Positions 7,316-33,398 of a stretch of 33,398 nt of DNA are shown piece by piece (position 1 is the stretch's first letter; each line of letters starts with the position of its first letter). The position numbers were made by a program, and so were the translations under genes. Source of the DNA: Limnochordia bacterium (GTDB lineage Bacteria > Bacillota > Limnochordia > Darwinibacteriales > DTU012); assembly GCA_007116145.1 (NCBI GenBank), contig SKJB01000147.1, positions 1 through 33,398 on the forward strand, written 5' to 3'. Below the pieces are notes generated by a model. The model saw nothing but the letters and a program-made list of their open reading frames with translations, did no database searches and had not been told where the DNA came from.

Positions 7316-7351
7316 AGATCACAACACCTTCCTTCCTAAACACATCCTGCA

Positions 7352-8377: not shown

Positions 8378-8389
8378 AAATTTCACTCC

Positions 8390-9076: not shown

Positions 9077-9168
9077 TAGGTAGCCTCCTTTTAATGATCC
9101 TCTAATCTTTCGCCCTGTGTACCACATTACCTGCACTCTTTTATCTTTTTTCTTTTTTCTATATATAC

Positions 9169-9229: not shown

Positions 9230-10099
9230 CTATTCGCCACCCATACCTGACGTACCCATGGTCTCAACAATCTTACTCTGGTTGATAATAAAGATAACAA
9301 TAGGTACAGACATCATCATCAACGTAACTGCCGAAGCCACACCTTGGCGAGCAATACCACCTGCGGCTAATTGGCTAAGAGCATAGGGTAATGTTTTGAG
9401 TTCTTCTGCATAAATAAACATCCCCCCCGTTACTCCCCACAACTGTTGGAACACTAGAATTACAAGTGTTAACCAAGCCGGCTTTACAATAGGCATAACA
9501 ATTCGTGCATAAATCCGGAGTTCACTGGCACCATCGATTCTTGCAGCTTCAATGAGTGTGTCGGGAATCATGGCGTCAATAAACTTCTTCATTAGGTATA
9601 AGCCAAGAGTCCATTGCCAAGCTGGAACGATTACCGCCCAATAGGTATTAACCCATCCGATATAGGAGATGGTTAAATAGTTTGGAATGGCTGTTACTGC
9701 AGGAGCGAACATAAGAGAGAGCACAACTAATTCATTCAAGAAATTCTTGCCCGGAAATTCATGTTTAGAAAGGGCGTAAGCCGCTAACGATCCAGTGATT
9801 ACATTTCCTAGCATACCAATACTTACAATGAAAACTGAATTAAAGAAGTAACGCGATATTGGCACCCATGACTTACCCATTAACACGAATAAATCGGTAA
9901 AGTTATTCATGGTGGGATTTCGCACAAAGAATTGCGGCGGAAAGATAAACAATTCATTGAGCGGTTTGAAAGCATTACTAATGGCAAACACCAAAGGTAA
10001 CGCCATAAAGGCAGCACCAGCAGCTAGAAAAGCAAAAATAACCAAGTCACCACCGGTGGACCGAGATAGTCGTTTCTTTCGTAGTTGTAAACCTAACAC
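9230..10099 (-). CDS. Carbohydrate ABC transporter permease (MalG-like, CUT1 family)
   Basis: The 289-residue protein has about six membrane segments, a short cytoplasmic N-terminus and the MalG-type EAA loop EAARIDGASELRIYARIVMP (184-203), which docks on the transporter ATPase. Such permeases pair with a MalF-like partner to import oligosaccharides. The start is the GTG at 10099, with AGGAGGGG five bases upstream; it lies 11 bases after the stop of the MalF-like gene. It is the last gene of the operon: binding protein, MalF-like, MalG-like. No ATPase gene is present, so a shared MsmX/MsmK-type ATPase encoded elsewhere is likely. The cytoplasmic C-terminus (IVETMGTSGMGGE) is short. Confidence 0.92.
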   Translation of the reverse strand: MLGLQLRKKRLSRSTGGDLVIFAFLAAGAAFMALPLVFAISNAFKPLNELFIFPPQFFVRNPTMNNFTDLFVLMGKSWVPISRYFFNSVFIVSIGMLGNVITGSLAAYALSKHEFPGKNFLNELVVLSLMFAPAVTAIPNYLTISYIGWVNTYWAVIVPAWQWTLGLYLMKKFIDAMIPDTLIEAARIDGASELRIYARIVMPIVKPAWLTLVILVFQQLWGVTGGMFIYAEELKTLPYALSQLAAGGIARQGVASAVTLMMMSVPIVIFIINQSKIVETMGTSGMGGE

Positions 10100-10110
10100 G
10101 TAAACCCCTC

Positions 10111-11064
10111 CTATGATCCAACTTTATTCAATAGTCGCTGTACAATTTTTTGCGTAGCTACCATAGTGAGAAATAGTAATACAGCAATTGCTGACGCATA
10201 ACCCATCTCATAACGAACATTTCCATAGTCATTCAAATGCTGCATAACCGTCCACGTCGCATAATCTGTAGGTGTCGGACCCGTTAAGGCTACTAACTGA
10301 CCAGCCGCATTAAACGAGCCGGTTATCGAAATAATAGCACCAAACATCATATAACCACGCATCGCTGGAATGGTCAAAAACCATAATTCTTGCCAGCGAT
10401 TTCTAATTCCGTCAATGGCACCTGCTTCAAATAAGGACGAGCTAATTCCCTGTAATCCAGCAATAAACACAAGGAAACTTGTTCCCAAACTCATCCATAA
10501 CACTACAATAATTACAATACTCATCATGTAGGTAGGATCAAGTAACCACTGAACAGGGCGATCCACAAAACCCCAGTACATCAAGAAACCATTGATGTAC
10601 CCATAGGTATCACCACTAAATAATAATGTCCAAATCAAGAAAGCATTTCCTGAAATCGATGGGGCATAAAATAGCAGTGTCATAAAGGCTCGAACTTTTG
10701 GTTGTAATTCATTAATAAACCAAGCAAAAATGAAACACATAAAATAACTTAAAGGTCCTGTTATCGCTGAGAAGAACAAGGTGTTCTTCACTGAAATCAG
10801 GAAGACATCGTCGGCCAGAAATAGGCGAATATAATTGTTCCAACCGATCCAAGTAGGCCATTGTAACATATTAAAATAGGTAAAACTCAATACAATGGAT
10901 AACACTACAGGAAACACTGTAAAAGCTAGAAACAAACTGAAAAACGGCAATAAAAATAGATACGTTACTCGAGCGGCATATACACTTTCCCATAGTTTGG
11001 CTAATTTGCCTTGAGTACCGCCTTCTGGACCAATAGCTGGTGCACGGGTTACTACAGAACTCAC
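10111..11064 (-). CDS. Sugar ABC transporter permease (MalF-like, CUT1 family)
   Basis: The 317-residue protein has a polar N-terminal tail (1-33), then about six membrane segments and an EAA-type loop EAGAIDGIRNRWQELWFLTIP starting at Glu213. The motif differs slightly from the usual EAA..DGA form (EAG, DGI) but keeps the key Gly. It forms the translocation pore with the MalG-like protein encoded next. Translation starts at the GTG at 11064, with GGAGGG seven bases upstream. It is separated from the binding-protein gene by 92 bases containing a hairpin, which probably lets the binding protein be made in excess over the permeases, as in malE-malF type operons. Confidence 0.92.
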   Translation of the reverse strand: MSSVVTRAPAIGPEGGTQGKLAKLWESVYAARVTYLFLLPFFSLFLAFTVFPVVLSIVLSFTYFNMLQWPTWIGWNNYIRLFLADDVFLISVKNTLFFSAITGPLSYFMCFIFAWFINELQPKVRAFMTLLFYAPSISGNAFLIWTLLFSGDTYGYINGFLMYWGFVDRPVQWLLDPTYMMSIVIIVVLWMSLGTSFLVFIAGLQGISSSLFEAGAIDGIRNRWQELWFLTIPAMRGYMMFGAIISITGSFNAAGQLVALTGPTPTDYATWTVMQHLNDYGNVRYEMGYASAIAVLLFLTMVATQKIVQRLLNKVGS

Positions 11065-11156: not shown

Positions 11157-14100
11157 TTAATAACGATCTGCCGGGTCTTCTAGTCGGAAAAGATGACTGT
11201 AGTGACTCCAGTAGAGTTCCTCTAGTTCAGGACTAATTTGATCTCTCTTTGTAACTAAACCAAATTCCTCGCGTTTCCTAGCAATTTCCTCATTAGCAGC
11301 CTGATCATAATCAAGAATAGACTCTCGTAACGGACGATTTTGTAATACAACAGCTCGGAAGAGCCAATCAAATTGGCGGTTAACATAGTAACCTCCTAAA
11401 ACAGCTGGAACACCTTCTACCCACGTCCATTGCTCTACTAACAGATCTCTTTCCTCTGCTCGCCATGGTAATTGTTGAAGAGCTTCCACATTAGCCGATG
11501 CGTAACGAGCAGCTGCACCCATGAGACTCTCCATCTCTCGACCAAATCTTACTTGAGTCTCGGTACTGGTCCACCATTTTAGAAATTCCCATGCTTCATC
11601 TTTCTTGTCGCTTTGATTCAAAATTACCGCTCCAGAAGTTCCAGGTGGAACGGCCACTGCGCCTGGAGGTACAACAGTACCAGCAACTGGTACCGTTCGA
11701 GCGATGGTTCCATCTTCCATTCGTGTGCCCGGAACGGTAGTAAAGCCCCATTCTCCTCGTAATTCTGGTGCAAAAACAGATAAGGTATTAAACAAACCAT
11801 AATTTTCAATTACTAAAGGCATCTCACCCATTCGGAAACGGTTTTCTGCATTAAACTCTAAAGGCAAATTATACAAGGTAAATAAATCAGTTAGTTGGTC
11901 AAATACAGCTACTGCTGATTCTGAATCAAGATTGGTCTCGATTACATCCTCTTTAAACAAAGGTATTCCTTTTTGGTACAGGAACATCTGATAGGTCTGC
12001 ATATTCGGACGAATACCAAATTCCATATTCTCCTTCTGCAACTCAGGAATAATCGCATACACATCCTCCCAAGTCTCAGGAACCTCTAATCCTAATTCCT
12101 CCAACACATCCTTACGGTAGAACAACATGGGAAATCCTTGGATTTCTGGTAATGCAAAGACCTTATCTCTAAACCGGAAAGGTAGAAAAGCACTATGCAT
12201 GAAGCGAGTTGCTACTTCGTCAAAATCATCAAATTGACTTAAGTCCGTTAACGCTCCACGGAATGCTAGATCCATGTTTGCAGCCCCTAATGCTACATCC
12301 GGAGCTCTATTTGCGATAATGACAGGAATAAGCAATTGATCCATCGCTTCAATTAACTCAAAATCTACGGTAATTCCAGTAGTAGCTGTAAAGCTATCTT
12401 CAATCATTTGTTTTAAAACTTGCGCCTGATCTCGTCCAGCACCGATCCACACTCGCAACATTTCATCACGCTCAGCCTCGGTCTCCGTAAAATCACCGAC
12501 ACGGTTATAATCGTGTGTAAATGAAGAAATGAAGGACCGAACCTCATGAGTCAACGTTTGAAATGTCGTTGGATTAGCACGTGGTAACGGCTTATCTGGT
12601 GATGCCACAATAAAATAGTCAACTTGTAAAGGCTGTGCTCTCGTTTGCATAATCCAAGTACCAAGGGCTCCGACATTATCACGAAACTCCCCAAGACGAC
12701 GTGGTATGCGATATGGACGATTTGCCATATCTTCAAGCATTCGCGCAAAGGATTCTAGTACTGCGGTGTGTCCACCACGTTCACCCGATACGGCAAATAA
12801 CTCATCAGCCATTCCCTCAATAAGACCACTTTGTATCTGTAAACGTTCGATTAAGCCAGGAATCCGAACTTCTAGTTGATAACTACGCATCGGATCTGGA
12901 GTCGCCGAAGTAATCATAATGATGCGCCGATAAATTGTGTTCAATTCATACAGTGTATCTTCAGTCCGACTTAATAACTCGGCTAAGTCACCTAACACGA
13001 CTTCGAGTCTAATCTCATTTCTACCCTCTTCTAAATATACGTAAGCAGGTCCATTTTCAGAACCTATAACACTCATTTCATAAAACTGGGAATAAGGAAA
13101 ACGGATGGCATCAGCTTCCTTGAACGGAACTTTACCATTAATTAAGAGTCGCCGACTCGAATAAAAACCACGGCGTTGATCTTGTTTTGCTTTAAAGGCT
13201 ATTTGATACAAACCACTTTGTGGAACATCTACTTCCCAAGCAATCCAATCTCCTACATCACGCCAGCGATGTCCACCAATAGAATTTAGGCGAATCTGCG
13301 CCTCATGGTAAGGTTCTACTGTGGGATCACCTTGATCAAATTCAGGAAATAAGGTTGGTGCTGAACGATATATCGAATCCTGACCCTGCACTTTGATAAA
13401 TACGTCTGGCACTGGCTTTAAGCCTTGGTCTGCATAGGTAACAGCCAAATCTGCGTACAAAGGCATCTCCTCAAACTGACGGATTCTTAGCTCATTGATA
13501 ATCATCGGTTCGGTGATACCTTCCCAACGAACGACATTCTTCCCCTCGTTAAAATAAAACAAAAAGGGATTTCTTTCGTAGCCTAAAGGATCAGTAATAT
13601 TCACCCGTTGCCACATCGGTTTCTCCTCTTGGCGAGCTCGTACATGATTACCCATATTATCTATACGGAAAGGTTCGGCATCTCCCCAAACTCGAAAAAA
13701 AGTTAGAAAAGCGGCCTCAGCAAACGGGCGTTCTCCATTTATATACAAGCCGCGTTCGATGGATGAACTACGCCCACTTACAGGGTAATACATGATATCC
13801 ATATTATACAAACCCGATTCTGGCACTTCTACTTCCCACTCTAAATACCCCCGCTCATCTGTTCTTACCGATATACCAGGTGCACCTTGGAAGTTTTCCA
13901 GATATTGTATATTGGATGTAGCATTTGTATAGCTAGCTGCAGGGATGCGTATTTCCACATCAGGACGGCTCTCTTCTACAAAACTAGCTAGATATTCTAG
14001 ATATTGAAGTTCACGAACATAAGCAGTTAATCTCACCAGTTCTAAATCGTCTTCTGTTGCTACTGCCTCCGCTTCAAGAATTACATCGTTTGCATCCCCT

Positions 14101-14216
14101 TCTTCCGCAGCCAATACGACATTAACATGTAAAACAGCGACAGTAATAAACATAAATGCTAACGCGGTAAAAATTATAGATCTCATAAAATGTGTTTTAA
14201 AACTAGTTTTACTCAT
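11157..14216 (-). CDS. Large extracellular sugar-binding protein with two N-terminal beta-sandwich modules
   Basis: I start at the ATG at 14216 (MSKTSF), giving 1019 residues; GGGAGG lies 13 bases upstream, rather far, and earlier in-frame starts lack a signal peptide at their N-terminus. A signal peptide (about 1-36) is followed by two related modules, about 88-248 and 270-410, sharing the phrases WEVEVPESGLYNMD / WEVDVPQSGLYQIA, LYINGERPF / LLINGKVPF and EGKNVVRWE / EGRNEIRLE. These resemble carbohydrate-binding sandwich folds of the CBM6/35 type. A helical spacer (about 411-575) leads to a family 1 solute-binding domain (about 585-985). Ordinary CUT1 binding proteins are about 400-450 residues, so this is more than double. 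No lipobox Cys is seen, so anchoring is unclear. I infer capture of a long or branched glycan for the two permeases downstream. Confidence 0.88.
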   Translation of the reverse strand: MSKTSFKTHFMRSIIFTALAFMFITVAVLHVNVVLAAEEGDANDVILEAEAVATEDDLELVRLTAYVRELQYLEYLASFVEESRPDVEIRIPAASYTNATSNIQYLENFQGAPGISVRTDERGYLEWEVEVPESGLYNMDIMYYPVSGRSSSIERGLYINGERPFAEAAFLTFFRVWGDAEPFRIDNMGNHVRARQEEKPMWQRVNITDPLGYERNPFLFYFNEGKNVVRWEGITEPMIINELRIRQFEEMPLYADLAVTYADQGLKPVPDVFIKVQGQDSIYRSAPTLFPEFDQGDPTVEPYHEAQIRLNSIGGHRWRDVGDWIAWEVDVPQSGLYQIAFKAKQDQRRGFYSSRRLLINGKVPFKEADAIRFPYSQFYEMSVIGSENGPAYVYLEEGRNEIRLEVVLGDLAELLSRTEDTLYELNTIYRRIIMITSATPDPMRSYQLEVRIPGLIERLQIQSGLIEGMADELFAVSGERGGHTAVLESFARMLEDMANRPYRIPRRLGEFRDNVGALGTWIMQTRAQPLQVDYFIVASPDKPLPRANPTTFQTLTHEVRSFISSFTHDYNRVGDFTETEAERDEMLRVWIGAGRDQAQVLKQMIEDSFTATTGITVDFELIEAMDQLLIPVIIANRAPDVALGAANMDLAFRGALTDLSQFDDFDEVATRFMHSAFLPFRFRDKVFALPEIQGFPMLFYRKDVLEELGLEVPETWEDVYAIIPELQKENMEFGIRPNMQTYQMFLYQKGIPLFKEDVIETNLDSESAVAVFDQLTDLFTLYNLPLEFNAENRFRMGEMPLVIENYGLFNTLSVFAPELRGEWGFTTVPGTRMEDGTIARTVPVAGTVVPPGAVAVPPGTSGAVILNQSDKKDEAWEFLKWWTSTETQVRFGREMESLMGAAARYASANVEALQQLPWRAEERDLLVEQWTWVEGVPAVLGGYYVNRQFDWLFRAVVLQNRPLRESILDYDQAANEEIARKREEFGLVTKRDQISPELEELYWSHYSHLFRLEDPADRY

Positions 14217-14741
14217 TTTTTGCTCTGCGCCTCCCTTTCTTAGCCACAAGTAATTATACGATTCCACAATCATGCCGAGATCTTGCCACCCCCTACATCC
14301 CAAAACCTATAGAATATACCCAAAGACATATTCTATGATAGCTACCAAAGATACAAACTTAACTTACAGACAACATGCTCTAGACATAGATATTCCTTAA
14401 CAATAATAAAATATCCTTCTTTTTCTTGAATAAATTTTGTCTAAAAATTGTATGCACCAAATCCTGAGAAACTGAATCCTTCACCACAGCATCTAGGCTA
14501 TTAAGTGACCGATCCCTCTAGAATGTTCCATTCTCTATCTCTTTTTGCAACCTAATACCACCATAACATTATGATCAGCCACACCACTCCCCACCCTAGA
14601 TTCTCAAACCATAATTATATAACACTCTAGTGTTACTACTAGAATATCAAACAAAGAAACACGCTGATTCTAATCTGGCTCAGACGAAGGTGCACACTCC
14701 TATTCCTGACTAAGAGCGTGCATTCAAAAGAGACATGTGGG
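14217..14741 (-). other. Long intergenic region upstream of the importer operon
   Basis: This 525-base AT-rich stretch holds no gene I can support and no riboswitch I recognise. It must carry the promoter of the importer operon. A perfect TATAAT (minus strand, 14253-14258) lies about 37 bases before the start codon but has no good -35 box. Several small inverted repeats are present (14310-14335, 14520-14534, 14621-14634, 14691-14722), which could be operators or transcript hairpins. Confidence 0.5.
14310..14335. repeat. Inverted repeat in the importer leader region
   Basis: TAGAATAT at 14310-14317 pairs with ATATTCTA at 14328-14335 across a 10-base gap; one more A-T pair extends it on the outside. 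The half-site spacing of 18 bases suits either an operator or a leader hairpin. It lies about 95 bases upstream of the binding-protein start. Confidence 0.45.
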
Positions 14742-14767
14742 GCATCAAGAAATTCGTTGCTTGATGC
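14742..14767 (-). terminator. Possible weak terminator overlapping the aconitase stop codon
   Basis: A perfect 8-bp inverted repeat (14742-14749 with 14760-14767, 10-base loop) overlaps the last codons and stop of the aconitase gene. The minus-strand sequence after it is C-rich rather than a U-tract, so termination by it alone is doubtful. A second hairpin at 14691-14722 (9 bp, one mismatch) follows. Confidence 0.35.
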
Positions 14768-22749: not shown

Positions 22750-23922
22750 ATGATTGAAGGAAAAGAAACGGTAATAAAGACTCGCGTGTTACGCCACGGG
22801 GTAGTGGGTGGTGGTACAGGTTCGTTTATTGGTGATGTTCATCGTAAAGCTGCAACCTTTGACGGTAAATCTGAACTTTTAGCTGGCTGCTTCTCGCGCG
22901 ATTGGGATGTAACAAAACAAACAGGTCAAATGCTAGGTTTAGATAGCCAAAGGTTATATAAAACCTTTCAAGAAATGGCTTTAGCTGAGGGTACGCGTGG
23001 AGATGGCATTGATTATGTAAGTATTTGTACGCCAAATTATGCCCATTACGAGATAGCTAAAATATTTCTGCAACAAGGTATCCATGTGGTCTGCGATAAA
23101 CCATTAGCACTAACGGTGGCTCAAGGAGAGGAACTAGCAGATCTTGCCCAAAGGAACGATTTACTTTTCTGCGTAACCTATGCCTACTCAGCCCATCCGC
23201 TCCTCTGCCAGGCACGTGAAATGATTCGCCGTGGCGAAATCGGTGAAATCCGGGTGGTTGTTGGCGAATATCCACAAGGATGGTTAGCCGATAATTTAGA
23301 GGATACGGGCCAACGACAAGCAACCTGGCGCACCGATCCAAAAATGGCAGGCATCTCCAATTGTGTCGGCGATATTGGTAGTCACATTGAGCATACTGTA
23401 TACTTTCTCACGGGTTTGAAGATTAAGTCGCTCTGTGCTAACCTTACAGCTTTCGGCGAAGGACGCGAACTAGATACCAATGCTGAGGTTTTAGTGCGAC
23501 TCGAGAACGGTGCCACTGGCTCTTATTGGTGCTCCCAAGTAGCAATCGGCAATGATAATGGTTTACGAGTACGTATCTATGGTACTAAAGGCGCAATTGA
23601 GTGGGAACAAGAAAATCCTAACAGCATGAAAGTAACTTTTGCCAACGAACCTGTGCAAATCTATGGGCGCGGCAGTGGCTACCTATATCCAGAAGCCTCG
23701 GAACTCTCTCGAATCCCAAGCGGTCACCCTGAAGGATACTACACTGCATTTGCCAATCTCTATAACGCCTTTATTAGTGCTCTAATTAAAAAACAAGCTG
23801 GCCTCACCTTAACTACAAAGGATTTAGATTTCCCTAATGTTCATGATGGAATTCAAGGCATTAAATTTATCCATGCATGTGTAGATAGCTCAAAACAAGG
23901 AGCTGTCTGGGTTAACTTATAG
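22750..23922 (+). CDS. Gfo/Idh/MocA-family sugar oxidoreductase (first of three)
   Basis: The 390-residue protein has an N-terminal NAD(P)-binding fold with HGVVGGGTGSFIGDVHRKA (16-34), the conserved CDKPLA (115-120, with Lys117 the catalytic lysine), and the catalytic GDIGSHIEH (207-215, Asp208 and His212), followed by the beta-sheet domain typical of the family. Members oxidise or reduce a ring carbon of sugars, glycosides or inositols. The ATG at 22750 is preceded by GGAGG at 7 bases. The next gene, a xylose-isomerase-like TIM barrel, begins 20 bases after its stop, so the two form an operon, the only plus-strand one here. Such pairs occur in inositol catabolism (IolG with IolE/IolI) and in 3-keto-glycoside cleavage (DgpA with DgpC); I cannot tell which applies. 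Confidence 0.9.
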   Translation: MIEGKETVIKTRVLRHGVVGGGTGSFIGDVHRKAATFDGKSELLAGCFSRDWDVTKQTGQMLGLDSQRLYKTFQEMALAEGTRGDGIDYVSICTPNYAHYEIAKIFLQQGIHVVCDKPLALTVAQGEELADLAQRNDLLFCVTYAYSAHPLLCQAREMIRRGEIGEIRVVVGEYPQGWLADNLEDTGQRQATWRTDPKMAGISNCVGDIGSHIEHTVYFLTGLKIKSLCANLTAFGEGRELDTNAEVLVRLENGATGSYWCSQVAIGNDNGLRVRIYGTKGAIEWEQENPNSMKVTFANEPVQIYGRGSGYLYPEASELSRIPSGHPEGYYTAFANLYNAFISALIKKQAGLTLTTKDLDFPNVHDGIQGIKFIHACVDSSKQGAVWVNL

Positions 23923-23942
23923 AATTTGAGGAGGAACTGCTA

Positions 23943-24935
23943 ATGGCACGACCAATTACACTATTTACCGGCCAATGGGCTGACATGAGTTTTGAAGATA
24001 TTTGTCAATTTGCAAATAACGCTGGTTATGATGGTTTAGAAATCGCGTGTTGGGGCGATCACATGGATGTAAAGCAAGCTGCTACCAATCCAGCATACAT
24101 CGAAAATCGCAAGGCGATTCTAGCTAAGTACAACTTGCAATGCTGGGCTTTAGGTAACCATCTAGCCGGACAATGTGTGGGCGATGATTGGGACGCACGC
24201 TTGGACAACTTTGCTCCTGAAGCGGTTAAGGGAAACCCAGAGAAAATTCGCGCCTGGGCAATTAGCGAGATGTTAGCAACAGCCCAGGCTGCTAAAAATA
24301 TGGGTTGTGCCGTGGTAACAGGTTTTACTGGATCTCCAATTTGGAAGTATCTCTACTCCTTCCCCCAAACTACTGAAGAGATGATAGCAGAAGGTTTTCA
24401 ACGGATACTTAAATTATGGACTCCAATCTTTGATGAGTTCGATAAACAAGAAGTAAAATTCGCCCTGGAAGTCCATCCAACCGAAATTGCCTTTGATTTC
24501 TATACCACCGAGCGGCTGTTCAAAACGTTTAATCATCGTCCCACCCTTGGCTTAAACTTTGATCCTAGCCACTTACTCTGGCAAGGTGTTACACCCCACA
24601 TCTTTTTGCGAAAATTCGCCAACAAGGTTTATCACGTCCACATGAAAGATGTGGCTGTTAACCTCAACGGTCGAACCAGTATCTTAGGCTCTCATATTGA
24701 ATTCGGAGATGCCCGCCGAGGTTGGAACTTCCGTTCTTTGGGTCATGGTGATGTTAACTTTGAAGAAATCATACGTGCCTTAAACGATGTGGGCTACACC
24801 GGTCCTCTATCCGTCGAATGGGAGGACAGCGGCATGGAACGTCAGTTTGGCGCTAAAGAGGCAAGGGAATTCGTAAGCAAAATTGACTTTGCACCGTCTG
24901 CTGTCGCTTTTGATGATGCGATCAAAAAATCGTAA
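23943..24935 (+). CDS. Sugar phosphate isomerase/epimerase-like TIM barrel (xylose-isomerase-like, AP2Ec family)
   Basis: The 330-residue protein has the fold signature of the AP endonuclease 2 family, with probable metal ligands Glu176 (LEVHPTE), Asp207 (NFDPSH), His233 (HVHMKD) and Glu292 (SVEWED). N-terminal FTGQWADMSFEDICQFANNA and YDGLEIACWGDH form the first strands. Related enzymes isomerise or epimerise keto-sugars, dehydrate inosose, or eliminate the aglycone of 3-keto-glycosides. The ATG at 23943 has GAGGAGG upstream. Being directly behind a Gfo/Idh/MocA gene, it most likely acts on that enzyme's keto product. It ends 12 bases before a strong terminator. Confidence 0.88.
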   Translation: MARPITLFTGQWADMSFEDICQFANNAGYDGLEIACWGDHMDVKQAATNPAYIENRKAILAKYNLQCWALGNHLAGQCVGDDWDARLDNFAPEAVKGNPEKIRAWAISEMLATAQAAKNMGCAVVTGFTGSPIWKYLYSFPQTTEEMIAEGFQRILKLWTPIFDEFDKQEVKFALEVHPTEIAFDFYTTERLFKTFNHRPTLGLNFDPSHLLWQGVTPHIFLRKFANKVYHVHMKDVAVNLNGRTSILGSHIEFGDARRGWNFRSLGHGDVNFEEIIRALNDVGYTGPLSVEWEDSGMERQFGAKEAREFVSKIDFAPSAVAFDDAIKKS

Positions 24936-24947
24936 TCAATCCTAGAT

Positions 24948-24987
24948 ATAAACGTCCCTTCTCTGCAGAAGGAGACGTTTATTTTTT
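24948..24987 (+). terminator. Rho-independent terminator between convergent genes
   Basis: Arms 24948-24962 and 24967-24982 pair through 15 bp with one bulged A (24973) and a four-base loop. TTTATTTTTT follows on the plus strand. The minus-strand side has no U-tract, so it serves mainly the TIM-barrel operon, though its tail abuts the stop of the convergent radical SAM gene. Confidence 0.9.
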
Positions 24988-26239
24988 AGCCGCAACATTT
25001 CTTATACTTTTTGCCACTTTGACACGGACAAAGATCGTTACGCCCGATTTGATCCCAAAGGGTGCGGTAAACATCCTTGGTTAGCTGACGAATACCGTGT
25101 GGAGCTTGGCGCTGTTGCAATTGGGACACAATTGCTTTGTTAAATGGTTGCACATACGTAAAAAATTGACGATATCCCGCGCACAGATGGTTATGTCCCG
25201 CTTCGCCATCGGGGCTTAAGCCTACCCGGTTTTTTGGACAACCTCCGTAACAATATGTTAAAACTGGACATCTCTTACAGTATTCTGTGAGCGTATCAAG
25301 CTTATCCTGACCAAATTGCTTTTGGTTTGGCGAGTCCACCATATCCACCATTTTTGTTATTAAAAAATTCCCTAAGAGGTGATCCGGGTCGACATAGTGG
25401 TCACAAGCATACACATCGCCATTGTGCTCCATAGCTAGGAATCGACCACAGGTTGGGGCAAACACACAAACACTCGGGCCCATTCCTGCCCCTATGCCAA
25501 CTAATCCTTCAAAGAGTTGTACATAGATCTCTCCGAGATCCTCACACACCCACTCATTATAAATCTGCGTGAGAAAGCGACCATATTCTATTCCACCCAC
25601 ACTACGCACACCTACTTTCCCATCCACTTCTTGCTCGACAATGGGAATAAACTGTAGGTAATTCACCCCTAACTCCTTAAAGTAATGGTACATTTTCAAG
25701 GGGTGTTCAACATTTACATTGTTAACAACACAAAGCACATTAAACTCAACGTTAGATGCCTGCATACGCTCAAGACTAGCGCGTACTTCAGCACTCGTGT
25801 TACCACCCTTTTTATCCTTCCGGTAGCGATCATGTAGTTCTGGTGGTCCATCGAGACTCAAGCCCACGAGAAACTTGTGTTTACGCAAAAATTCACACCA
25901 GTTGTTGTCAAGTAGCATCCCATTCGTCTGGATCGAGTTTGCGATTGTCCATCCTTTTGGACGGTTTGCCTCTTGTAACTCTACAACCTTACGAAAAAAA
26001 TCAAGACCCATTAAAGTGGGTTCCCCACCTTGCCACGCAAAAGACACCTCAGGTCCTGGCTGCTGTGCAATATATTGCACGATATATTCCTCAAGCACAT
26101 GCTCCTGCATCCGGAAATCGGACTGATTTGGATAGAGCTTGGATTTCGTTAAATAAAAACAATATTCACAGTCCAAGTTACAAGTTGCCCCAATGGGTTT
26201 GGTCATAATATGAAACGGTAATGAGCGAGCAATAGCCAA
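24986..26239 (-). CDS. Anaerobic sulfatase-maturase-like radical SAM protein with SPASM domain and SEC-C tail
   Basis: The 417-residue protein has the radical SAM cluster CNLDCEYC (Cys20, Cys24, Cys27) in the phrase KPIGATCNLDCEYCFYL typical of anaerobic sulfatase maturases, which turn a sulfatase Cys or Ser into formylglycine. Further on are WQGGEP, SIQTNG and GLSLDGP, then a SPASM-type Cys set (CVFAPTCG, YACDHY, YCKRCPVLTYCYGGC). Residues 399-417 (GRNDLCPCQSGKKYKKCCG) form a complete SEC-C zinc motif. I favour the TTG at 26239 because AAGG is nine bases upstream; a GTG at 26248 sits too close to the ribosome site but cannot be excluded. It follows the second Gfo/Idh gene with no terminator, so it belongs to the KdgK-Gfo/Idh operon. 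No sulfatase gene is in the window, so its target lies elsewhere or is another peptide. Confidence 0.88.
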   Translation of the reverse strand: MAIARSLPFHIMTKPIGATCNLDCEYCFYLTKSKLYPNQSDFRMQEHVLEEYIVQYIAQQPGPEVSFAWQGGEPTLMGLDFFRKVVELQEANRPKGWTIANSIQTNGMLLDNNWCEFLRKHKFLVGLSLDGPPELHDRYRKDKKGGNTSAEVRASLERMQASNVEFNVLCVVNNVNVEHPLKMYHYFKELGVNYLQFIPIVEQEVDGKVGVRSVGGIEYGRFLTQIYNEWVCEDLGEIYVQLFEGLVGIGAGMGPSVCVFAPTCGRFLAMEHNGDVYACDHYVDPDHLLGNFLITKMVDMVDSPNQKQFGQDKLDTLTEYCKRCPVLTYCYGGCPKNRVGLSPDGEAGHNHLCAGYRQFFTYVQPFNKAIVSQLQQRQAPHGIRQLTKDVYRTLWDQIGRNDLCPCQSGKKYKKCCG

Positions 26240-26304
26240 ATTCTCCACCCTTCCTCGGTCATAATAACAGCCCTATCCATCACTGCTAAAAAGCCGCTTC
26301 TTCT

Positions 26305-27378
26305 CTACTCCACCCGTAAAGCTACTTTTTGGGCCTGCAAACACAACTCCGCCGCCTTAAACACATGCTCTTGAGTCATTGCAAGCTCTGTGCGGTTTAG
26401 GCAATCAGTGATTAATTGACCAAAGAAGGGATAACCTACTTTACCAGCTAGAGACAGGTGATGCTCTCCATCGTTGTTGACTAGGTAAAGCTGATCTCCT
26501 TGACGATCACGGCAAATGTCAGTATATTTACGTAGCTCGATATAACCCTCTGTGCCTAGTATTAAAGTCCGACCATCTCCCCAAGTGGTAAGGCCATCTG
26601 GGGTAAACCAGTCTACACGAAAATAATTTGTGGCACCATTATCACCAATCAAGGTAGCATCACCGAAATCTTCAAACTCAGGAAAATCCTTGTTACTATA
26701 ATTAGCCACTTTACTCGCAGCGACCTGCGCATCTTGACAATTTGCGTACGATAGAAATTGTTCAATTTGATGCGAACCAATGTCAGTTAAGATACCACCA
26801 TATTGCTCACGCTGGAAGAACCAATCTGGCCGGCTCGGTCGATCTAGGCGGTGAGGTCCTAGCCCAATCACTTGTAAGACGCGACCTATCGCACCGTCTT
26901 GAATTAAACTCCCTGCATGAACAGCACTCTCTACATGTAAGCGTTCACTAAAATACACTGCATATTTTTTTTGCACCTGCGCTACCTTGTCTTTTGCTTG
27001 TGCAAGCTGTGTGAGTGTTGTAAACGGTGTTTTATCAGTAAAATAATCCTTGCCATGATCCATTGCTCGCATCCCAAGAGCACACCGGAGTGAAGGAATC
27101 GCGGCTCCAGCTATCATCTGCACGCTTATATCCTCTAGCACCTCTGCTTCGGATCGCGCCACCTTCACACCTGGATAGCGCTGTACGAAATCTGCAACCT
27201 TTGCTGCATCTTTGTCATATACCCATTTCAATTCTGCGCCTGCTTCTATCAGACCATTACACATTCCATAAATGTGCCCATGATCTAGGGCAACAGCTGC
27301 GAAAACAAACTCGCCGGGTTCACAGACGCGATTTACTTTCCCTTGCGGGGCATAATTCATTCCATCTCTCTTGTCCAT
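26305..27378 (-). CDS. Gfo/Idh/MocA-family oxidoreductase (second of three), divergent nucleotide motif
   Basis: I start at the ATG at 27378, with AAGGAGG ten bases upstream; the product has 357 residues. The Rossmann-like N-terminus reads FAAVALDHGHIYGMCNGLIEAG, so the usual GxGxxG is replaced by a DHGH form. The catalytic lysine phrase is DYFTDKTPF (Lys116), in place of the usual EKP. GGILTDIGSHQIEQFL gives Asp199 and His203 as catalytic partners. The family oxidises or reduces sugar ring carbons, but the altered nucleotide motif makes cofactor use uncertain; some relatives keep a tightly bound cofactor. It sits 48 bases after a KdgK-like kinase and 65 bases before the radical SAM gene, in one likely operon. 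Confidence 0.85.
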   Translation of the reverse strand: MDKRDGMNYAPQGKVNRVCEPGEFVFAAVALDHGHIYGMCNGLIEAGAELKWVYDKDAAKVADFVQRYPGVKVARSEAEVLEDISVQMIAGAAIPSLRCALGMRAMDHGKDYFTDKTPFTTLTQLAQAKDKVAQVQKKYAVYFSERLHVESAVHAGSLIQDGAIGRVLQVIGLGPHRLDRPSRPDWFFQREQYGGILTDIGSHQIEQFLSYANCQDAQVAASKVANYSNKDFPEFEDFGDATLIGDNGATNYFRVDWFTPDGLTTWGDGRTLILGTEGYIELRKYTDICRDRQGDQLYLVNNDGEHHLSLAGKVGYPFFGQLITDCLNRTELAMTQEHVFKAAELCLQAQKVALRVE

Positions 27379-27426
27379 TGCTGTAATACCTCCTTGTGTC
27401 CTCGATTGCATGCCGAGTACGAATTG

Positions 27427-28410
27427 CTATCGTTTTAAGGTCTCCACATCACCTGATAAATATTGGTCCACTAAATCCCTGGTAATCCAAGAAAAATCAC
27501 CCACATAGGTGTTCTTTAACGTCATCGATGCATTACCAAGCCTCACACCTAGATCAATCCCTGACTCCAGATAGCCGGTAAGAAAACCACCTGCTAAGGC
27601 ATCGCCAGCCCCGAGACGCTCCACCCCATTGAGCTTCCCGAATTGATCCTGTGCTACAACTCTGCCTTGGGATACACATGTGATCCGCCACAGAGCATCG
27701 CTATTCCCACTGCTGTGCACCAAAACAACTGTGGGAATGCCTAAATCTTTGCTGAGCTTCTGCGCAAGACGATCTCCTGGCAGACTAGTGAGACCAAACA
27801 GAGTGCGCGCATCACCACCGGATAGAAATAGAATATCAATGTATGGATAATAAGACTGCAACGTTTCTTGTGCTTTGGCAGCCGTCCACAACTTACTGCG
27901 ATAATTCGTATCAAAGGCTACTATTTTACCTTGCGCTTTTGCGGTTTGTACAGCATGGAGACAAACGTTATGCGCATTTTGGCTCAGAGCGGGATTGATC
28001 CCGCTCAGTAGGAAAATTCGAGTTTGGGAAAGAATTTCAGTCCAATGAAAATCATCCATGGAAATGTGACTAAATACGGAGTGCTCTCGATCATAATAGG
28101 CTACTCCTGGTCTAGGCGCTTGAGCATTCTCGAAAAATAACAAACCCTGGCGATGGGTATCTGACTTTGCTATCCAACTTGTATCCACGCCATGCTCACG
28201 ACAGCGATTAATGATCACACGGCCCAAAGGGTTGTTGGCAACCTTTGTAACATACGACACCTTAAGTCCTAAACGTGCAGCAGCTATGGCCGTATTAAGC
28301 TCACTACCTGCCGGATATATCCGTAAAGACCCCGTCTGCTCAAATACACCTGGACCAGGTGGGGAAATGCGAATTAGTGATTCACCGAAACTAATTACAT
28401 CAAAACCCAT
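27427..28410 (-). CDS. PfkB-family sugar kinase, probable 2-keto-3-deoxygluconate kinase
   Basis: The 327-residue protein begins MGFDVISFGESLIRISPPGP, has GSELNTAIAAARLG (35-48) for sugar binding, the KdgK phrase FDTNYRSKLW (166-175), and the anion-hole motif LGAGDALAGGF with catalytic Asp270. KdgK makes 2-keto-3-deoxy-6-phosphogluconate during uronate and pectin breakdown. I use the ATG at 28410, with GGGAGG seven bases upstream; an earlier in-frame ATG lacks one. It leads an operon with the second Gfo/Idh gene and the radical SAM gene. Upstream is the terminator of the third Gfo/Idh gene; a TATGAT (minus strand, 28440-28445) could be the -10 box, but its -35 partner is poor. Fructokinase or another PfkB sugar kinase remains possible, and no KDPG aldolase is in view. 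Confidence 0.85.
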   Translation of the reverse strand: MGFDVISFGESLIRISPPGPGVFEQTGSLRIYPAGSELNTAIAAARLGLKVSYVTKVANNPLGRVIINRCREHGVDTSWIAKSDTHRQGLLFFENAQAPRPGVAYYDREHSVFSHISMDDFHWTEILSQTRIFLLSGINPALSQNAHNVCLHAVQTAKAQGKIVAFDTNYRSKLWTAAKAQETLQSYYPYIDILFLSGGDARTLFGLTSLPGDRLAQKLSKDLGIPTVVLVHSSGNSDALWRITCVSQGRVVAQDQFGKLNGVERLGAGDALAGGFLTGYLESGIDLGVRLGNASMTLKNTYVGDFSWITRDLVDQYLSGDVETLKR

Positions 28411-28447
28411 CAACGAACCTCCCAACGTTGCCAAATTTAATCATACT

Positions 28448-28506: not shown

Positions 28507-29664
28507 CTAGAATGTACCAGACGCATCTATGGTTTTGCCGGACGTTTCTTTCGTAAAGGTCGACTTCTTAACCCGTTCCTGTAATTTCTCAAGAAATAGC
28601 TCTTCATCTACAGGAATATCCGCCCATGAATCTGTCCAAGACGACAAATGCATAGCATTCGAGATTTGCAAACCTCGAATACCCTCCTCACCTGGTGCTA
28701 ATAATGGAGTTCCCTTAAGAATTGCGTTTACCCAATTCGTAGTAATACCCTTGTGACCAGTCAGTTGGCCTTTAATGGGAATATCACACTTCCATACTTC
28801 GGGACTACCAAAGCCACCCTTATACTCGGCATTGAATTGCCGTTCTCCGACTCGCAATCGCCAGAAAGTCATTTTATTATCCTCAATAACTATTTTACCC
28901 CGATCGCCAGTAATCTCAAATCGGTTTGTACCTGGTGCTTCTCCCGTTGCTGTGACAAACAAGCCCGTGGCACCATTCTCATATTCCACATACGCAGTTA
29001 CATCATCTTCTACTTCGATGTTATGGTAGCGACCGAAGTGACAGAATGCACGTACGCGCTTAGGCAATCCGCAACTCCATTGCCAAATATCCAATTGGTG
29101 GGGATCTTGGTTAAGCAACACTCCGCCGCCTTCCCCAGCCCAAGTAGCGCGCCAGCCGCCTGAATCATAATAGCTTTGTGGGCGATACCAACTCGTAATA
29201 ATCCATACGGTTCGTTTCAATTCGCCTAATTCACCAGAATGCAGCAAATCACGTAATCGCTGATACGTAGGATTCGTTCTCTGGTTGTACATGATCCCAA
29301 AGACTTTATCGCTCTTCTCCGCTGCCTCATTCATTTCACGTACCTGCTTAGTGTATACACCTGCTGGTTTTTCGACTAAGACATGTAATCCATTTGCAAA
29401 ACCTTGAATCGCTAATCCTGGATGATCATAGTGAGGAGTAGCGACCATGATTGCATCGACACATTTAGCTGCAAATAATGCATCTGGAGTTTCAAACGTC
29501 TGAATGTCTTCACCCAGGTTTTCTTTAGCCCACTTTATCCGATCTGGATTAGAGTCACACACTGCAACTAATTCTGCATTTGGGACTTCGCTCTTAATCA
29601 AGTAATTAGCATGAATAGTACCCATGTTACCAATACCAATAATACCAATTCTTACTTTATCCAT
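28507..29664 (-). CDS. Gfo/Idh/MocA-family oxidoreductase (third of three)
   Basis: The 385-residue protein has a clean NAD(P) motif GIIGIGNMGTIHA (7-19), the catalytic VEKP (Lys99), and GEGGGVLLNQDPHQLD (177-192), where His189 is catalytic and the usual Asp four places before it is Asn185. This Asn form is common in one branch of the family. Members act on sugars, glycosides, inositols or sugar amines. The ATG at 29664 has AGGAGGG eight bases upstream. It lies between two terminators, so it is a single-gene unit; a TATAAA-like box about 30 bases upstream of the start may be its promoter. Its neighbours are the DUF5696/permease operon on one side and the KdgK operon on the other, so it probably works in the same catabolic set. 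Confidence 0.88.
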   Translation of the reverse strand: MDKVRIGIIGIGNMGTIHANYLIKSEVPNAELVAVCDSNPDRIKWAKENLGEDIQTFETPDALFAAKCVDAIMVATPHYDHPGLAIQGFANGLHVLVEKPAGVYTKQVREMNEAAEKSDKVFGIMYNQRTNPTYQRLRDLLHSGELGELKRTVWIITSWYRPQSYYDSGGWRATWAGEGGGVLLNQDPHQLDIWQWSCGLPKRVRAFCHFGRYHNIEVEDDVTAYVEYENGATGLFVTATGEAPGTNRFEITGDRGKIVIEDNKMTFWRLRVGERQFNAEYKGGFGSPEVWKCDIPIKGQLTGHKGITTNWVNAILKGTPLLAPGEEGIRGLQISNAMHLSSWTDSWADIPVDEELFLEKLQERVKKSTFTKETSGKTIDASGTF

Positions 29665-29755: not shown

Positions 29756-30751
29756 CTAACCAACAATACCAGTTCGCTCCACACTCTCAATAAAGTATCT
29801 TTGTAGGAATCCATAGACGAACAACAGTGGTACAATAAACATCAGCATACCAGTGTTTCGAATAACGGATATATACTCATCACTGTACTGATAGCCACCG
29901 AACGATGAGGTCAATCGCTCTAGCATAAACGGTAGCAAGGTAGCAGAGCGCCGCATATACATGGAGGTCAGGAAAATGTCATTCCATTGCCACACAAAAG
30001 AGAAAAGAAATACAATCAAGATCGCTGGTGCTGCACCAGGAAGCATAATGGTAAAGAATGTGCGAATCTGACCAGCACCGTCTACTAAGGCTGCTTCTTC
30101 TAAATCCTTCGGCATTCCCTTAAAGAACTGACGCATAATGTAGATGAACAAGCCATTCTTTAAACCCATACCCGTAGCCGATGTCAGCACAAACGGCCAA
30201 TACGTTCCTAAGAGATTAATGGGTTCTCTACCAAACCAGCCTGCTATCCCAAAGAAATCAAAGAACCGGAAATTTAGAAACAAAGGTACCATGATCATCT
30301 GAGGTGGTACTAACAATGTTAGAATAACCATGCCAAACAAAAAGCCACTGCCAGGAAATTTGAAGCGAGCAAATCCGTACCCGATAAAGGTACACGATGC
30401 CAACTGCAAGGATGAAACTAAGAACGCTAGTGTAACAGAGTTTCGAAACGAAACCAGATAATTCATTTCTTCATAAACATCGCGATAGTTTCGCAAAATA
30501 CTCCTCATATCTAATCGTCTTGGTATCCATTTTACCGTCAGATCAAAGAGATCAGACTCTGCCATAATCGATGACGACAACTTAATAATCAATGGATACA
30601 AGATAATAAAAGCAATACCAATCACTAATACCGCCCTGATAAAGCTCCATGTAACGCCACTCCAGAAGGCAGATGTCAGAAATCTGCTTGTACGGACTGC
30701 ACCCTCTGGAACACTGTTAACTGGGTTGCTTTTGCTAATTAAGGTTTTCAT
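29756..30751 (-). CDS. Carbohydrate ABC transporter permease (MalG-like, CUT1 family), second importer
   Basis: The 331-residue protein has an extra polar N-terminus (1-35), about six membrane segments and an EAA loop LEEAALVDGAGQIRTFFTIM (about 217-236). It should form the pore with the MalF-like protein encoded just upstream and take up a sugar with help of a binding protein and an ATPase, neither of which is in view. The ATG at 30751 is preceded by GGGAGG seven bases before. It is the last gene of an operon that begins beyond the window edge and includes the DUF5696 gene. It is clearly a paralogue, not a duplicate, of the permease at 9230. Confidence 0.92.
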   Translation of the reverse strand: MKTLISKSNPVNSVPEGAVRTSRFLTSAFWSGVTWSFIRAVLVIGIAFIILYPLIIKLSSSIMAESDLFDLTVKWIPRRLDMRSILRNYRDVYEEMNYLVSFRNSVTLAFLVSSLQLASCTFIGYGFARFKFPGSGFLFGMVILTLLVPPQMIMVPLFLNFRFFDFFGIAGWFGREPINLLGTYWPFVLTSATGMGLKNGLFIYIMRQFFKGMPKDLEEAALVDGAGQIRTFFTIMLPGAAPAILIVFLFSFVWQWNDIFLTSMYMRRSATLLPFMLERLTSSFGGYQYSDEYISVIRNTGMLMFIVPLLFVYGFLQRYFIESVERTGIVG

Positions 30752-30774
30752 TTATGAACCTCCCAAGTTTAAGA

Positions 30775-31677
30775 TCATTCCATATAGAAAACGTGTTTTG
30801 AGATGAACCCAAAGACTATCACTAAGAACAAAGCAATAGCGCCAAAGTACATCCACGTCATGGCAACACTTACACCATATATCCCACGACTCCATGCAGC
30901 ATTAGAAATATAGGTTACTAAACTATTTCCAGGAGCTGTAAAGGAATCTACAATGATGAAAACCATGTTGGTTAGAAACAAGGGAGATATCAAAGGAAAC
31001 GTGATTTTCCAGAAACTTTCCCATGCTGTTGCTCCCTCGATCTTTGCTGTCTCGAACAAAGATGATGGAATACTCTGCAACCCAGCTAAAAAGATCAAAA
31101 TTGGAATTGCTGATGCGTTAATCACATCTGGTATGCGGTTTACCGCAGTTACAATATAGACAATGAAATCCTGCGGCATCCGTAACTGCATCATAACCTG
31201 AACGACTGCTCGAGATGTGGCGATTGTGTCTTCTTGATCTGCAACATAAGCTAACATGCGATGCAAAATATCCTGTGCTTCCAATTGTGCAATAATCCCA
31301 GCCGTTAAAATTACAGGCATAAAGAAAATAACTCGAGCAAGCAATCGGCCCTTAAATTCTTGATTTAACAGAGTAGCCGCAAAAAAACTAAAAATAATTA
31401 CGGCTGGAATATCTGTTAAAATCCGGATCGTGGTCTCGGTAAAGATCCGCATAAAGCTAGGATCAACCCGTAGCGCATAACGAAAATTTTCAAACCCCAA
31501 ATAATTTAAATTGAATCCATGGGGTGTAACTTCCAATTCACTTAAACTAAAGACAAACGATTGAATCATGGGTCCTAGAAAAAACAGTAAAAACCCGATA
31601 GTAAACGGTGCTGTGAAGACTATTCCCCAGAGAGCTCGCTTTCCAGTCAACGTTAAACGAGGTTTTAGACTAATCAT
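30775..31677 (-). CDS. Sugar ABC transporter permease (MalF-like, CUT1 family), second importer
   Basis: The 300-residue protein has about six membrane segments and the EAA-type loop ETAKIEGATAWESFWKITFP (209-228). An unusually long extracytoplasmic insertion (about 132-172, rich in charged residues) lies between two membrane segments, absent from the other MalF-like permease here; it might contact the binding protein or the DUF5696 protein. The ATG at 31677 lies one base after the stop of the DUF5696 gene, with GAGGGGG inside that gene's end, so the two are translationally coupled. The pair functions with the MalG-like protein encoded 23 bases downstream. Confidence 0.9.
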   Translation of the reverse strand: MISLKPRLTLTGKRALWGIVFTAPFTIGFLLFFLGPMIQSFVFSLSELEVTPHGFNLNYLGFENFRYALRVDPSFMRIFTETTIRILTDIPAVIIFSFFAATLLNQEFKGRLLARVIFFMPVILTAGIIAQLEAQDILHRMLAYVADQEDTIATSRAVVQVMMQLRMPQDFIVYIVTAVNRIPDVINASAIPILIFLAGLQSIPSSLFETAKIEGATAWESFWKITFPLISPLFLTNMVFIIVDSFTAPGNSLVTYISNAAWSRGIYGVSVAMTWMYFGAIALFLVIVFGFISKHVFYME

Positions 31678-31678
31678 A

Positions 31679-33398
31679 CTAGCGTTCCCCCTCTACAATA
31701 ATGAAATCTTCTCCACCAACAACATGACCATTAACTTCCATGGTTACATTGTTGTAGTTGACAATAATTGTAACCCCATTCTCATATGTGGTTTGCATTA
31801 CTCTGCTTGCCAATTCTTGATGGTCAACAATTCGTTGGCCTTGAACTCTTCCTAATGCGTTATTTAGTGTGGCATAGAGTTCACTCGCAAATGGTAGCCA
31901 ATCCCCATAATACAGTGCATACAGCTGATCAAAATCAGTGGCTTTTACTTCCGATGATTTTGCATAACTACCAATAAAATAAGGATAGGATCCTGTTTCT
32001 AAGGTTTTTAACATATTTACATGCCAACCACCCGACAGGTTGATAGGTATGCCTGCATAGTCAATATAACCACGTAATGCCATTTGAAAGAAGGGAACTT
32101 CTCTGTTAAACAAGTTTTGGTTACTGCTACGCATGGGCACATTTAAGACCGTATCTGCAAAGGGTAGAGCGTAAGAATTACCATGGTCTACCATGATTTT
32201 TAGACCTTGATCTTGCATCTTCTGCAATTGCTCTTGAATAATGTTCACAGATTCAACCCGATTGACTAAACGATCTAATTCATATCGGAAGTCAGAGTTA
32301 GCTTCTCTAGCCATATCAAACAAAGAAATATTATTGATCTTGTACTTATCATAGTTTGCTAAGAAGCTATCCACTAAAGGACCCACTCTTGAGGGTGATA
32401 GTACATAATGGTATAACCGATTATCGCGAGTAAACATACTCGTGGAATACTGGTAAGAACGAGCAACTAAACGATTAAGGAGCCGCGATCCGTCTTGGCG
32501 AGGATTAAAATCATTGAATACTGTGTTACGATACACATTGAGGAAGCCAACACTAGGATATAGTTCGAATCCTCTTTCGTTCAAAAAGTCATTGAAGCTC
32601 ATTAACTCGTTTTGCGTCCCAATAACTCTTTCGATCTTCGCTTCGGTTGGATAATCATGTTTGATTCCACCGTCTAACCAACCACTATACTTAACTTTGA
32701 TATTATCAATTCCAGCATTGACTAAGTCTTGCACTAACTCTCTAGACTGACTAATAGTGGTTAACGGAAAGGTTACAGTACGAGAAATACCCAATATTGG
32801 TTTGCGCTTGTCAATCGCTGCGACTAATTCCAAATAAAACGGAATATTATCAGCAGGTTCTCGCAGGACCAAATCATAGCGGTTTACTAGATACTCTTGG
32901 TACATGTTAGCCATTCCCACATAGTTCGCTTGATCACCAGCTAGGAATCCATAGCGGATGACAAAGTCACCTTGGTAGATCTGCGATTGATAGGAGGGTA
33001 CTTGACCAGCATGATCGAGATTAATGACTCCTCTAGGAATCGGTGTAAACTGGGCAAAGATCTTATTGTAGTTATCGGTTTTCTCGGAAATATCGGCTCG
33101 TATTCTGGCTAAAGCTGCACCCTCTTCAATAATTGCAAAAAAGGCATTGTCACCCTGCTTTAGTCCAAAAACTGGTAAACGGACAGTCTCTGGATGCCTG
33201 ATAACCTCATTGCGGACATCTAAGGTGTTATCTCGACCATAGACAAGCTCATTGTAAGCAGCTGAATAAGTCCGTCCATTATTTAGATCGATTAGAGCCC
33301 CTGATCCATCGGGAACAAACATATAGCCTTCTTGTTCAACATTAGCTGCTCCAAAGAATTCTAAAACATCAATATCTAACAGTGGGAAGGTATGTTTC
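31679..33398 (-). CDS. DUF5696-family protein, N-terminus cut by window edge
   Basis: The reading frame is open to the window edge: 25 codons lie upstream of an internal ATG (33322) and include LLDIDVLEFFGAANVEQEGY, which runs straight into MFVPDGSGALI, so the true start lies outside. The visible 572 residues match what I know as DUF5696, a family of unknown function found near CUT1 importers in Bacillota. An N-terminal beta-rich part (about 1-150) precedes a region with alternating strands and helices that looks like a TIM barrel (NIKVKYSGWLDGG, ELYPSVGFLNVYRN, NISLFDMAREANSDF, KIMVDHGNSYALPFADT, DYAGIPINLSGGWHVNMLKT), then a small C-terminal strand pair ending TIIVNYNN. I infer a glycosidase-like, possibly secreted enzyme, but no function is established. 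It is coupled to the permease gene downstream. Confidence 0.8.
   Translation of the reverse strand, partial: KHTFPLLDIDVLEFFGAANVEQEGYMFVPDGSGALIDLNNGRTYSAAYNELVYGRDNTLDVRNEVIRHPETVRLPVFGLKQGDNAFFAIIEEGAALARIRADISEKTDNYNKIFAQFTPIPRGVINLDHAGQVPSYQSQIYQGDFVIRYGFLAGDQANYVGMANMYQEYLVNRYDLVLREPADNIPFYLELVAAIDKRKPILGISRTVTFPLTTISQSRELVQDLVNAGIDNIKVKYSGWLDGGIKHDYPTEAKIERVIGTQNELMSFNDFLNERGFELYPSVGFLNVYRNTVFNDFNPRQDGSRLLNRLVARSYQYSTSMFTRDNRLYHYVLSPSRVGPLVDSFLANYDKYKINNISLFDMAREANSDFRYELDRLVNRVESVNIIQEQLQKMQDQGLKIMVDHGNSYALPFADTVLNVPMRSSNQNLFNREVPFFQMALRGYIDYAGIPINLSGGWHVNMLKTLETGSYPYFIGSYAKSSEVKATDFDQLYALYYGDWLPFASELYATLNNALGRVQGQRIVDHQELASRVMQTTYENGVTIIVNYNNVTMEVNGHVVGGEDFIIVEGER

Follow-up and report, generated by a model that had tools for sequence, protein, structure and literature searches.

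What does a DUF5696 protein do when its gene runs directly into that of a sugar permease: cut glycans, or serve the importer in some other way? The question arises at the end of contig SKJB01000147.1 of the Limnochordia bacterium assembly GCA_007116145.1 (here G000:C126). The window analyzed, 33,398 bases, is the complete contig; the DUF5696 gene at its end therefore cannot be extended inside it. The reading we prefer, at a probability of roughly 0.55, is that DUF5696 is exported and handles glycans as a subunit of a distinct CUT1 importer lineage (MalF2/MalG2), forming a mixed family that is mainly non-catalytic and catalytic at most in some lineages. The genes at issue are these:

31679..33397, minus strand: DUF5696 gene, encoding the C-terminal 572 residues of a ~945-residue protein; 5' end cut by the contig end; C-terminal part of a GH129-like beta-sandwich, TIM barrel and C-terminal beta domain
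31675..31681, minus strand: junction TAG-T-ATG, read from the sequence (the DUF5696 stop and the MalF start are one base apart; translational coupling)
30775..31677, minus strand: MalF-type permease of the DUF5696-dedicated lineage (F2, hereafter MalF2), with a BPD_transp_1 match
29756..30751, minus strand: MalG-type permease (G2, hereafter MalG2), BPD_transp_1 E = 3.8e-15; its position after F2 is conserved in relatives

The truncated frame matched PF18952 (DUF5696) over profile positions 49–612 of 612 with 625 bits (E = 1.4e-187), far above the curated cutoff of 25.6 bits. On the minus strand the junction reads AGAGGGGGAACGC-TAG-T-ATG, so that the stop does lie one base before the MalF-like start, as an earlier note on this DNA had reported, and a Shine-Dalgarno-like GAGGGGG sits within the DUF5696 gene. 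The same note had given 29756–33398 for the DUF5696 protein coupled to a CUT1 importer; 29756 is the end of MalG, and the span covers MalG, MalF and a partial DUF5696.

The partnership was traced in 120 DUF5696 genes collected from Paenibacillus, Cohnella, bacilli, Caldicoprobacter, Mahella, Halanaerobiaceae-type organisms and metagenome-assembled genomes of digester Bacillota. A MalF-type permease gene lay directly downstream on the same strand in 114, most often with a 4-base ATGA overlap; most of the six exceptions had a spurious antisense open reading frame or a contig end there. A Yip1 gene preceded DUF5696 in 114 of the 120. In a tree of 195 permeases, all 112 MalF permeases that follow DUF5696 were set apart as one clade by a branch of support 100. 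A MalF2 profile gave 67 strong matches over 21 genomes, separated by score from all other permeases. Of these, 66 are directly after DUF5696; the remaining one comes after a scaffold gap, across which a DUF5696-like C-terminus is encoded. Read the other way, 66 of the 70 DUF5696 matches in the 21 genomes have a MalF2, the remaining four being fragments. Across 250 genomes of the phylum, MalF2 was found in 20, and DUF5696 was present in 20/20. Several DUF5696-positive genomes (L156, L159, L160 and L168), which may or may not belong to the 250-genome sample, are outside the MalF2 list; in these too the next gene after DUF5696 encodes a permease of that cluster. DUF5696 and the MalF2 lineage thus occur in one-to-one association, and the tight link to the importer that the earlier note had drawn from a single junction holds at the scale of the family. 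Chance neighborhood of DUF5696 and MalF, without joint function, is scarcely credible: no point in its support was found, and it is contradicted by the 67/67 pairing and by the dedicated permease clade.

G006:C18 was considered as an exception to the pairing and dismissed, as a scaffold gap cuts the DUF5696 gene there. At L184 (2933–2973), a scaffold gap joins a chemotaxis-receptor gene to the last DUF5696 codons, likely a mis-join in the assembly. The cassette proteins diverge in step, with distance correlations of 0.87–0.95 and DUF5696 the fastest (mean identity 36%). We did not take this correlation as a pointer to the permease as the DUF5696 partner, since the whole cassette moves together. 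MalF2 itself has an apparent extra loop before the EAA region (about residues 128–185 of the window protein), varying among MalF2 proteins, that could be a docking site.

The N-terminal part of the DUF5696 protein was found at the end of contig G000:C59 (44504–45592 of 45,594 bases), as a 368-codon frame with 67% identity to the closest relative over 363 residues. The genome has one C-terminal and one N-terminal DUF5696 match, and both halves therefore belong together; by comparison with the closest relative, L040, about 9 residues would fall into the assembly gap between them. At L182 the N-terminal piece (14508–15593) runs to 362 residues and opens with the signal-peptide-like start MNTRQLVFKNALVGLMVLSLLLAGNLTASA. 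Directly upstream of that start (L182 12266–14440) is the gene of a 724-residue protein that combines NHL repeats with a TPR-like part and a Yip1 domain. Sequence beyond the window end thus supplied the export signal and the YIP1 gene that the earlier note had proposed to look for there. We propose an operon YIP1-DUF5696-MalF2-MalG2, possibly including the sugar dehydrogenase and kinase genes at 29664–26305. A promoter and terminator scan upstream of the YIP1 gene found nothing.

What kind of protein is exported? Searching the PDB with a single DUF5696 sequence gave no match; matches required an alignment profile. A profile of 74 relatives hit the GH129-type structures 8rzg (E = 2e-9), 5opq (DagB; 2.9e-9) and 5wzn (NagBb; 3.6e-5). 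An AlphaFold2 model of the full-length relative L072 (944 residues, 55% identical to the window part) reached a predicted local distance difference test score (pLDDT) of 93.2 and a predicted template modeling score (pTM) of 0.88, with an N-terminal domain, a beta-sandwich, a TIM barrel and a small C-terminal beta domain, in that order. Foldseek with this model returned DagB (5opq, 1.9e-27), NagBb (5wzn, 6.2e-25), GH101 (2e-16) and GH36 (2e-12), then GH31. The model has the beta-sandwich, TIM barrel and C-terminal beta domain of the GH129-type fold, and by this prediction DUF5696 is a barrel glycosidase relative with a GH129/GH101-type fold. The earlier note had foreseen both the barrel with its small C-terminal strand domain and the glycosidase kinship. 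A search of a viral structure library gave no useful match. Weak DUF5696 matches in G009 and G002:C118 were rejected as relatives; their sequences read as a different barrel protein and as an enzyme of the glycogen-branching type.

The closest structure, DagB or ZgGH129 (ZGAL_3152; PDB 5opq, 8rzk), is an exo-alpha-1,3-(3,6-anhydro)-D-galactosidase of Zobellia. It matches the model with a TM-score of 0.69 over the target, is also the best PDB profile match, and has its beta-sandwich, TIM barrel and C-terminal beta domain arranged as in the model (PMC5698469). Identity is about 12%, and the contexts differ: a carrageenan polysaccharide utilization locus for DagB, an ATP-binding cassette (ABC) importer cassette for DUF5696. 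DagB has four catalytic acids, D486, E517, E531 and D202 of the partner subunit, with D486 corresponding to NagBb D435 (PMC5698469). These acids are conserved and needed in DagB, whereas the DUF5696 column matching D486 and D435 varies. GH101 endo-alpha-N-acetylgalactosaminidases (PDB 5a55, 2zxq) share the superfamily fold but are much larger, and no sequence-level match to them was found.

NagBb, the GH129 alpha-N-acetylgalactosaminidase of Bifidobacterium bifidum, allowed the catalytic positions to be mapped. Residue statistics come from 124 non-redundant DUF5696 proteins, with 805 alignment columns ranked by conservation; L072 positions 731, 739 and 774 correspond to D361, D369 and D404 of the window protein. 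The residues discussed are:

32315..32317, minus strand: Asp361, GH129 nucleophile position at the end of barrel strand 4, mapped by profile and spacing to NagBb D435
32186..32188, minus strand: Asp404, GH129 acid/base position, where barrel strand 5 ends and three residues ahead of near-invariant Asn407, mapped to NagBb E478
32291..32293, minus strand: Asp369, in the N-S-D-F motif; no other acid of the catalytic face is as well conserved (117/124)
32657..32680, minus strand: Trp240 to His247 (GWxxGGxxH), a loop that follows barrel strand 2 and is conserved (W 121/124, H 100/124)
32039..32041, minus strand: Asn453, barrel strand 7 region, invariant (124/124)

In NagBb, D435 and E478, the latter of which we take to be the acid/base, lie in the stretches CAYLDVF and LTSSEEVSDW. 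The Paenibacillus GH129 stretch IGSEGGNDFA aligns with LMVSGGNAYALPYA of DUF5696, and therefore the acid/base position is L072 774, three before the near-invariant Asn777. D435 is one of two catalytic residues of NagBb (PMC5698469). L072 731, where barrel strand 4 ends, precedes 774 by 43 residues, the spacing of the NagBb dyad, and is accordingly the nucleophile position; this mapping is less certain than that of the acid/base, because hhalign put a gap there, with 731 opposite an Asp two residues past the GH129 nucleophile.

Neither position is conserved across DUF5696. A carboxylate occupies 731 in 80 of the 124 proteins (Asp in 78), and 774 is Asp or Glu in 47; both positions are acidic in 30 and neither in 27. 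In conservation they rank 325 and 593 of the 805 columns. On a FastTree phylogeny built without these two columns (all our trees are FastTree trees), acid status changes at least 16 times at 731 and at least 21 times at 774. By contrast, a control set of 25 GH129 sequences reaching down to about 20% identity keeps both catalytic residues in 25/25. The conserved nucleophile Asp and acid/base Glu of GH129 are thus absent as a family feature, and the window protein for its part carries Asp at both positions. The data do not support a uniform new glycosidase family, nor, in that form, the earlier note's suggestion of a new glycoside-acting enzyme family. Conservation peaks in the beta-sandwich (L072 373–544, with 37 of the 80 most conserved columns) rather than on the catalytic face of the barrel. 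The note had named conserved residues outside any pocket as a point against a glycosidase; this applies in part, although W240, H247, D369, N407 and N453 lie on loops or strand ends of the predicted catalytic face.

Might DUF5696 nonetheless be active throughout, an exo-acting GH129/GH101-superfamily glycosidase supplying the importer with sugars clipped at the cell surface, its catalytic residues moved within the barrel to, for example, Asp652 or Asp739 of L072? The glycosidase fold favors this, as do carboxylates at 731, at 739 (117/124) and at 652 (84/124), and a tendency of 652 and 774 to stand in for one another (58 and 21 discordant genes). Precedent exists in that the DagB acid/base is not conserved with NagBb within the same fold (PMC5698469), and a gene apparently of this kind is labeled GH129 in C. 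bescii (PMC8579813). Against it, no barrel-face carboxylate is universal. At position 739 five members have Asn and two have Ala or His; four of the Asn members also carry Thr at 731. The 652/774 exchange, which would have relocated the acid/base to 652, lost significance once relatedness was counted on the tree (median p = 0.375), and the GH129 controls show no such drift at either position. We hold activity throughout the family to be possible but unlikely.

A narrower version would have a minority of lineages as enzymes, the window's included, and the rest as non-catalytic receptors, making the window gene an active glycosidase. All four of E190, D361, D369 and D404 are kept in the window protein, and Asp is invariant at 731, 739 and 774 in its nine-member clade (support 100). 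These residues make the window protein a fair candidate for activity. Its acid/base position, however, holds Asp rather than Glu, and we rate this version as a whole improbable.

We return to the preferred reading, a mixed and mainly non-catalytic subunit. Several of the observations weigh against it. The mapping onto NagBb combines a weak profile alignment (hhalign E = 9e-5) with spacing, and leaves the nucleophile column ambiguous by ~1 residue. Asp is still the commonest residue at the nucleophile position, Asp739 is kept in all but seven proteins, and retention of both carboxylates by the window clade would allow an active enzyme at least there.

Could DUF5696 simply be GH129 proper, an alpha-N-acetylgalactosaminidase? 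The fold and the weak profile similarity would fit, and the NagBb dyad positions can be mapped with the same spacing. But PF11308 (GH129) searches found no match in this genome, its relatives or the phylum, so that comparison sequences were taken from Paenibacillaceae instead, and the hhalign alignment shows just a remote profile-profile link between DUF5696 and GH129. The NagBb dyad is not conserved, and the neighboring genes serve mannan, xylan, pectin and cellulose. We consider this identity very improbable.

The cassette around DUF5696 has a usual order: an optional solute-binding protein (SBP), a 980-residue SBP, MalF1, MalG1, NHL-TPR-Yip1 (encoded by a single gene or by two), DUF5696, MalF2, MalG2 and an optional further SBP. 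Digester Bacillota carry up to 11 copies, and the enzymes beside DUF5696 differ between copies: GH26-CBM35, GH38, GH20, GH5-CBM46, GH9, GH29, apiosidase-like, pectate lyase, GH26-CBM27 and GH43-CBM22-GH43-CBM6. Two further features of the window belong to this cassette:

11157..14303, minus strand: 1048-residue SBP of the 980 type with two CBM6/CBM35-like (carbohydrate-binding) modules, SBP_bac_1 at residues 629–917; same cluster as the SBP preceding MalF1G1-YIP1-DUF5696 elsewhere
9230..11064, minus strand: permease pair beside the 980-type SBP, MalG1 (9230–10099) and MalF1 (10111–11064), by BPD_transp_1 and cluster membership

The 560-residue N-terminal extension of this SBP was modeled (pLDDT 88.7) as two CBM6/CBM35-like jelly rolls and a helical part, with CBM35/CBM6 matches; Cry-protein matches were disregarded as generic jelly-roll similarity of low TM-score. 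Usually upstream in the cassette, the 980-type SBP lies 15 kb downstream in the window. Together with the permease pair it is probably the other half of the cassette, separated here, and it would partner the window's MalF2/MalG2 permeases. Assignment to CUT1 is consistent on three counts: the permeases are of MalF/MalG type, with BPD_transp_1 matches and the EAA-loop motif (consensus IEGATxWExFWKITFPMxSP in A5); an extracellular SBP is present in the window, as SBPs are in relatives' cassettes; and the genome has a single OB_MalK protein of MalK/MsmX type, on C163 outside the operon, in the manner of shared MsmX ATPases. The cassette shares MalF/MalG-type permeases, family-1 binding proteins and a shared MalK/MsmX-type ATPase with the CUT1 maltose/oligosaccharide importers (MalFGK-E). 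Classical CUT1 systems have one permease pair where the DUF5696 cassette has two, and we know of none with an exported glycosidase-fold partner or an NHL-TPR-Yip1 protein.

A studied locus has this same eight-gene order: the xylan degradation locus of Caldicellulosiruptor/Anaerocellum bescii, xloEFG-X-GH129-axoFGE (Athe_0174–0185), whose expression on xylan was 4- to 100-fold higher, most of all for the proximal genes (PMC8579813). Our L155 reads SBP-MalF-MalG-NHL/Yip1-DUF5696-MalF-MalG-SBP, followed by a GH43-CBM22-GH43-CBM6 protein like XynF, which in the Caldicellulosiruptor locus is Csac_2411 (PMC5658599). From gene order and XynF architecture we infer that L155 is that xylan locus. The C. 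bescii gene is listed as GH129 by label alone; its L155 counterpart has Thr at both dyad positions, and therefore the label does not imply GH129 catalysis. It thus seems that the literature does hold some annotation of DUF5696, though a literature search did not find the name DUF5696 itself. GH129 proteins reported solely on crystalline cellulose in Paenibacillus O199 (PMC4867992) could likewise be DUF5696 proteins named by similarity.

How might such a subunit work? DUF5696 would sit at the cell surface or in the periplasm, outside the cytoplasmic membrane and near MalF2G2, scaffolded by the NHL-Yip1 protein, with its conserved beta-sandwich docked on that protein and/or the permease. The variable barrel face would bind oligosaccharide handed over by the CBM-carrying and plain binding proteins, so that paralogs in one genome could serve different glycans. 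In many lineages DUF5696 may act without cutting, as a pseudo-glycosidase receptor; some, including the window's with Asp361 and Asp404 kept, may trim a glycosidic bond before transport. ATP hydrolysis by the shared MsmX/MalK-type ATPase, present once in the genome, would drive transport. More tentatively, at a little under even odds, these cassettes represent a distinct ABC importer class, with an exported glycosidase fold that has become a fixed, mostly non-catalytic glycan-recognition subunit; an NHL-propeller/TPR/Yip1 membrane scaffold would hold it, and it would serve both permease pairs and both binding proteins.

Users of the cassette are plant-polysaccharide degraders: Paenibacillus, Caldicellulosiruptor-type thermophiles and digester Bacillota. 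Two of its proteins lack an assigned role, and annotators may easily label the DUF5696 protein GH129. A pseudo-enzyme receptor would change the gene-neighborhood annotation of glycan uptake in these bacteria and present a new kind of importer architecture, testable in cultured species; an enzyme would be equally odd, a glycosidase family without a fixed catalytic pair.

Other genes of the window are also of note. Right after MalG2, at 28507–29664 (minus strand), is a GFO/IDH dehydrogenase whose cluster recurs near several other DUF5696 cassettes. With the genes at 26305–28434 (minus strand) it makes up a set in which a 2-keto-3-deoxygluconate (KDG)-kinase-like PfkB kinase is flanked by two GFO/IDH dehydrogenases. 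Next in line with the importer genes, at 24986–26248 (minus strand), is an anaerobic sulfatase maturase (radical SAM; TIGR03942, 463 bits, above the cutoff). Six sulfatase matches were found in the genome, none within the window; together with the maturase they suggest a sulfated glycan. A divergent pair at 22750–24935 (plus strand), a GFO/IDH/MocA dehydrogenase and a xylose-isomerase-like barrel protein, has weak similarity to levoglucosan and glycoside 3-dehydrogenases and possibly represents a 3-keto-glycoside route. Finally, outer-membrane efflux proteins, an HlyD-type adaptor, a MacB/FtsX-like permease and ABC ATPases at 879–9136 (minus strand) form a tripartite efflux system, which implies a diderm Bacillota-like host.

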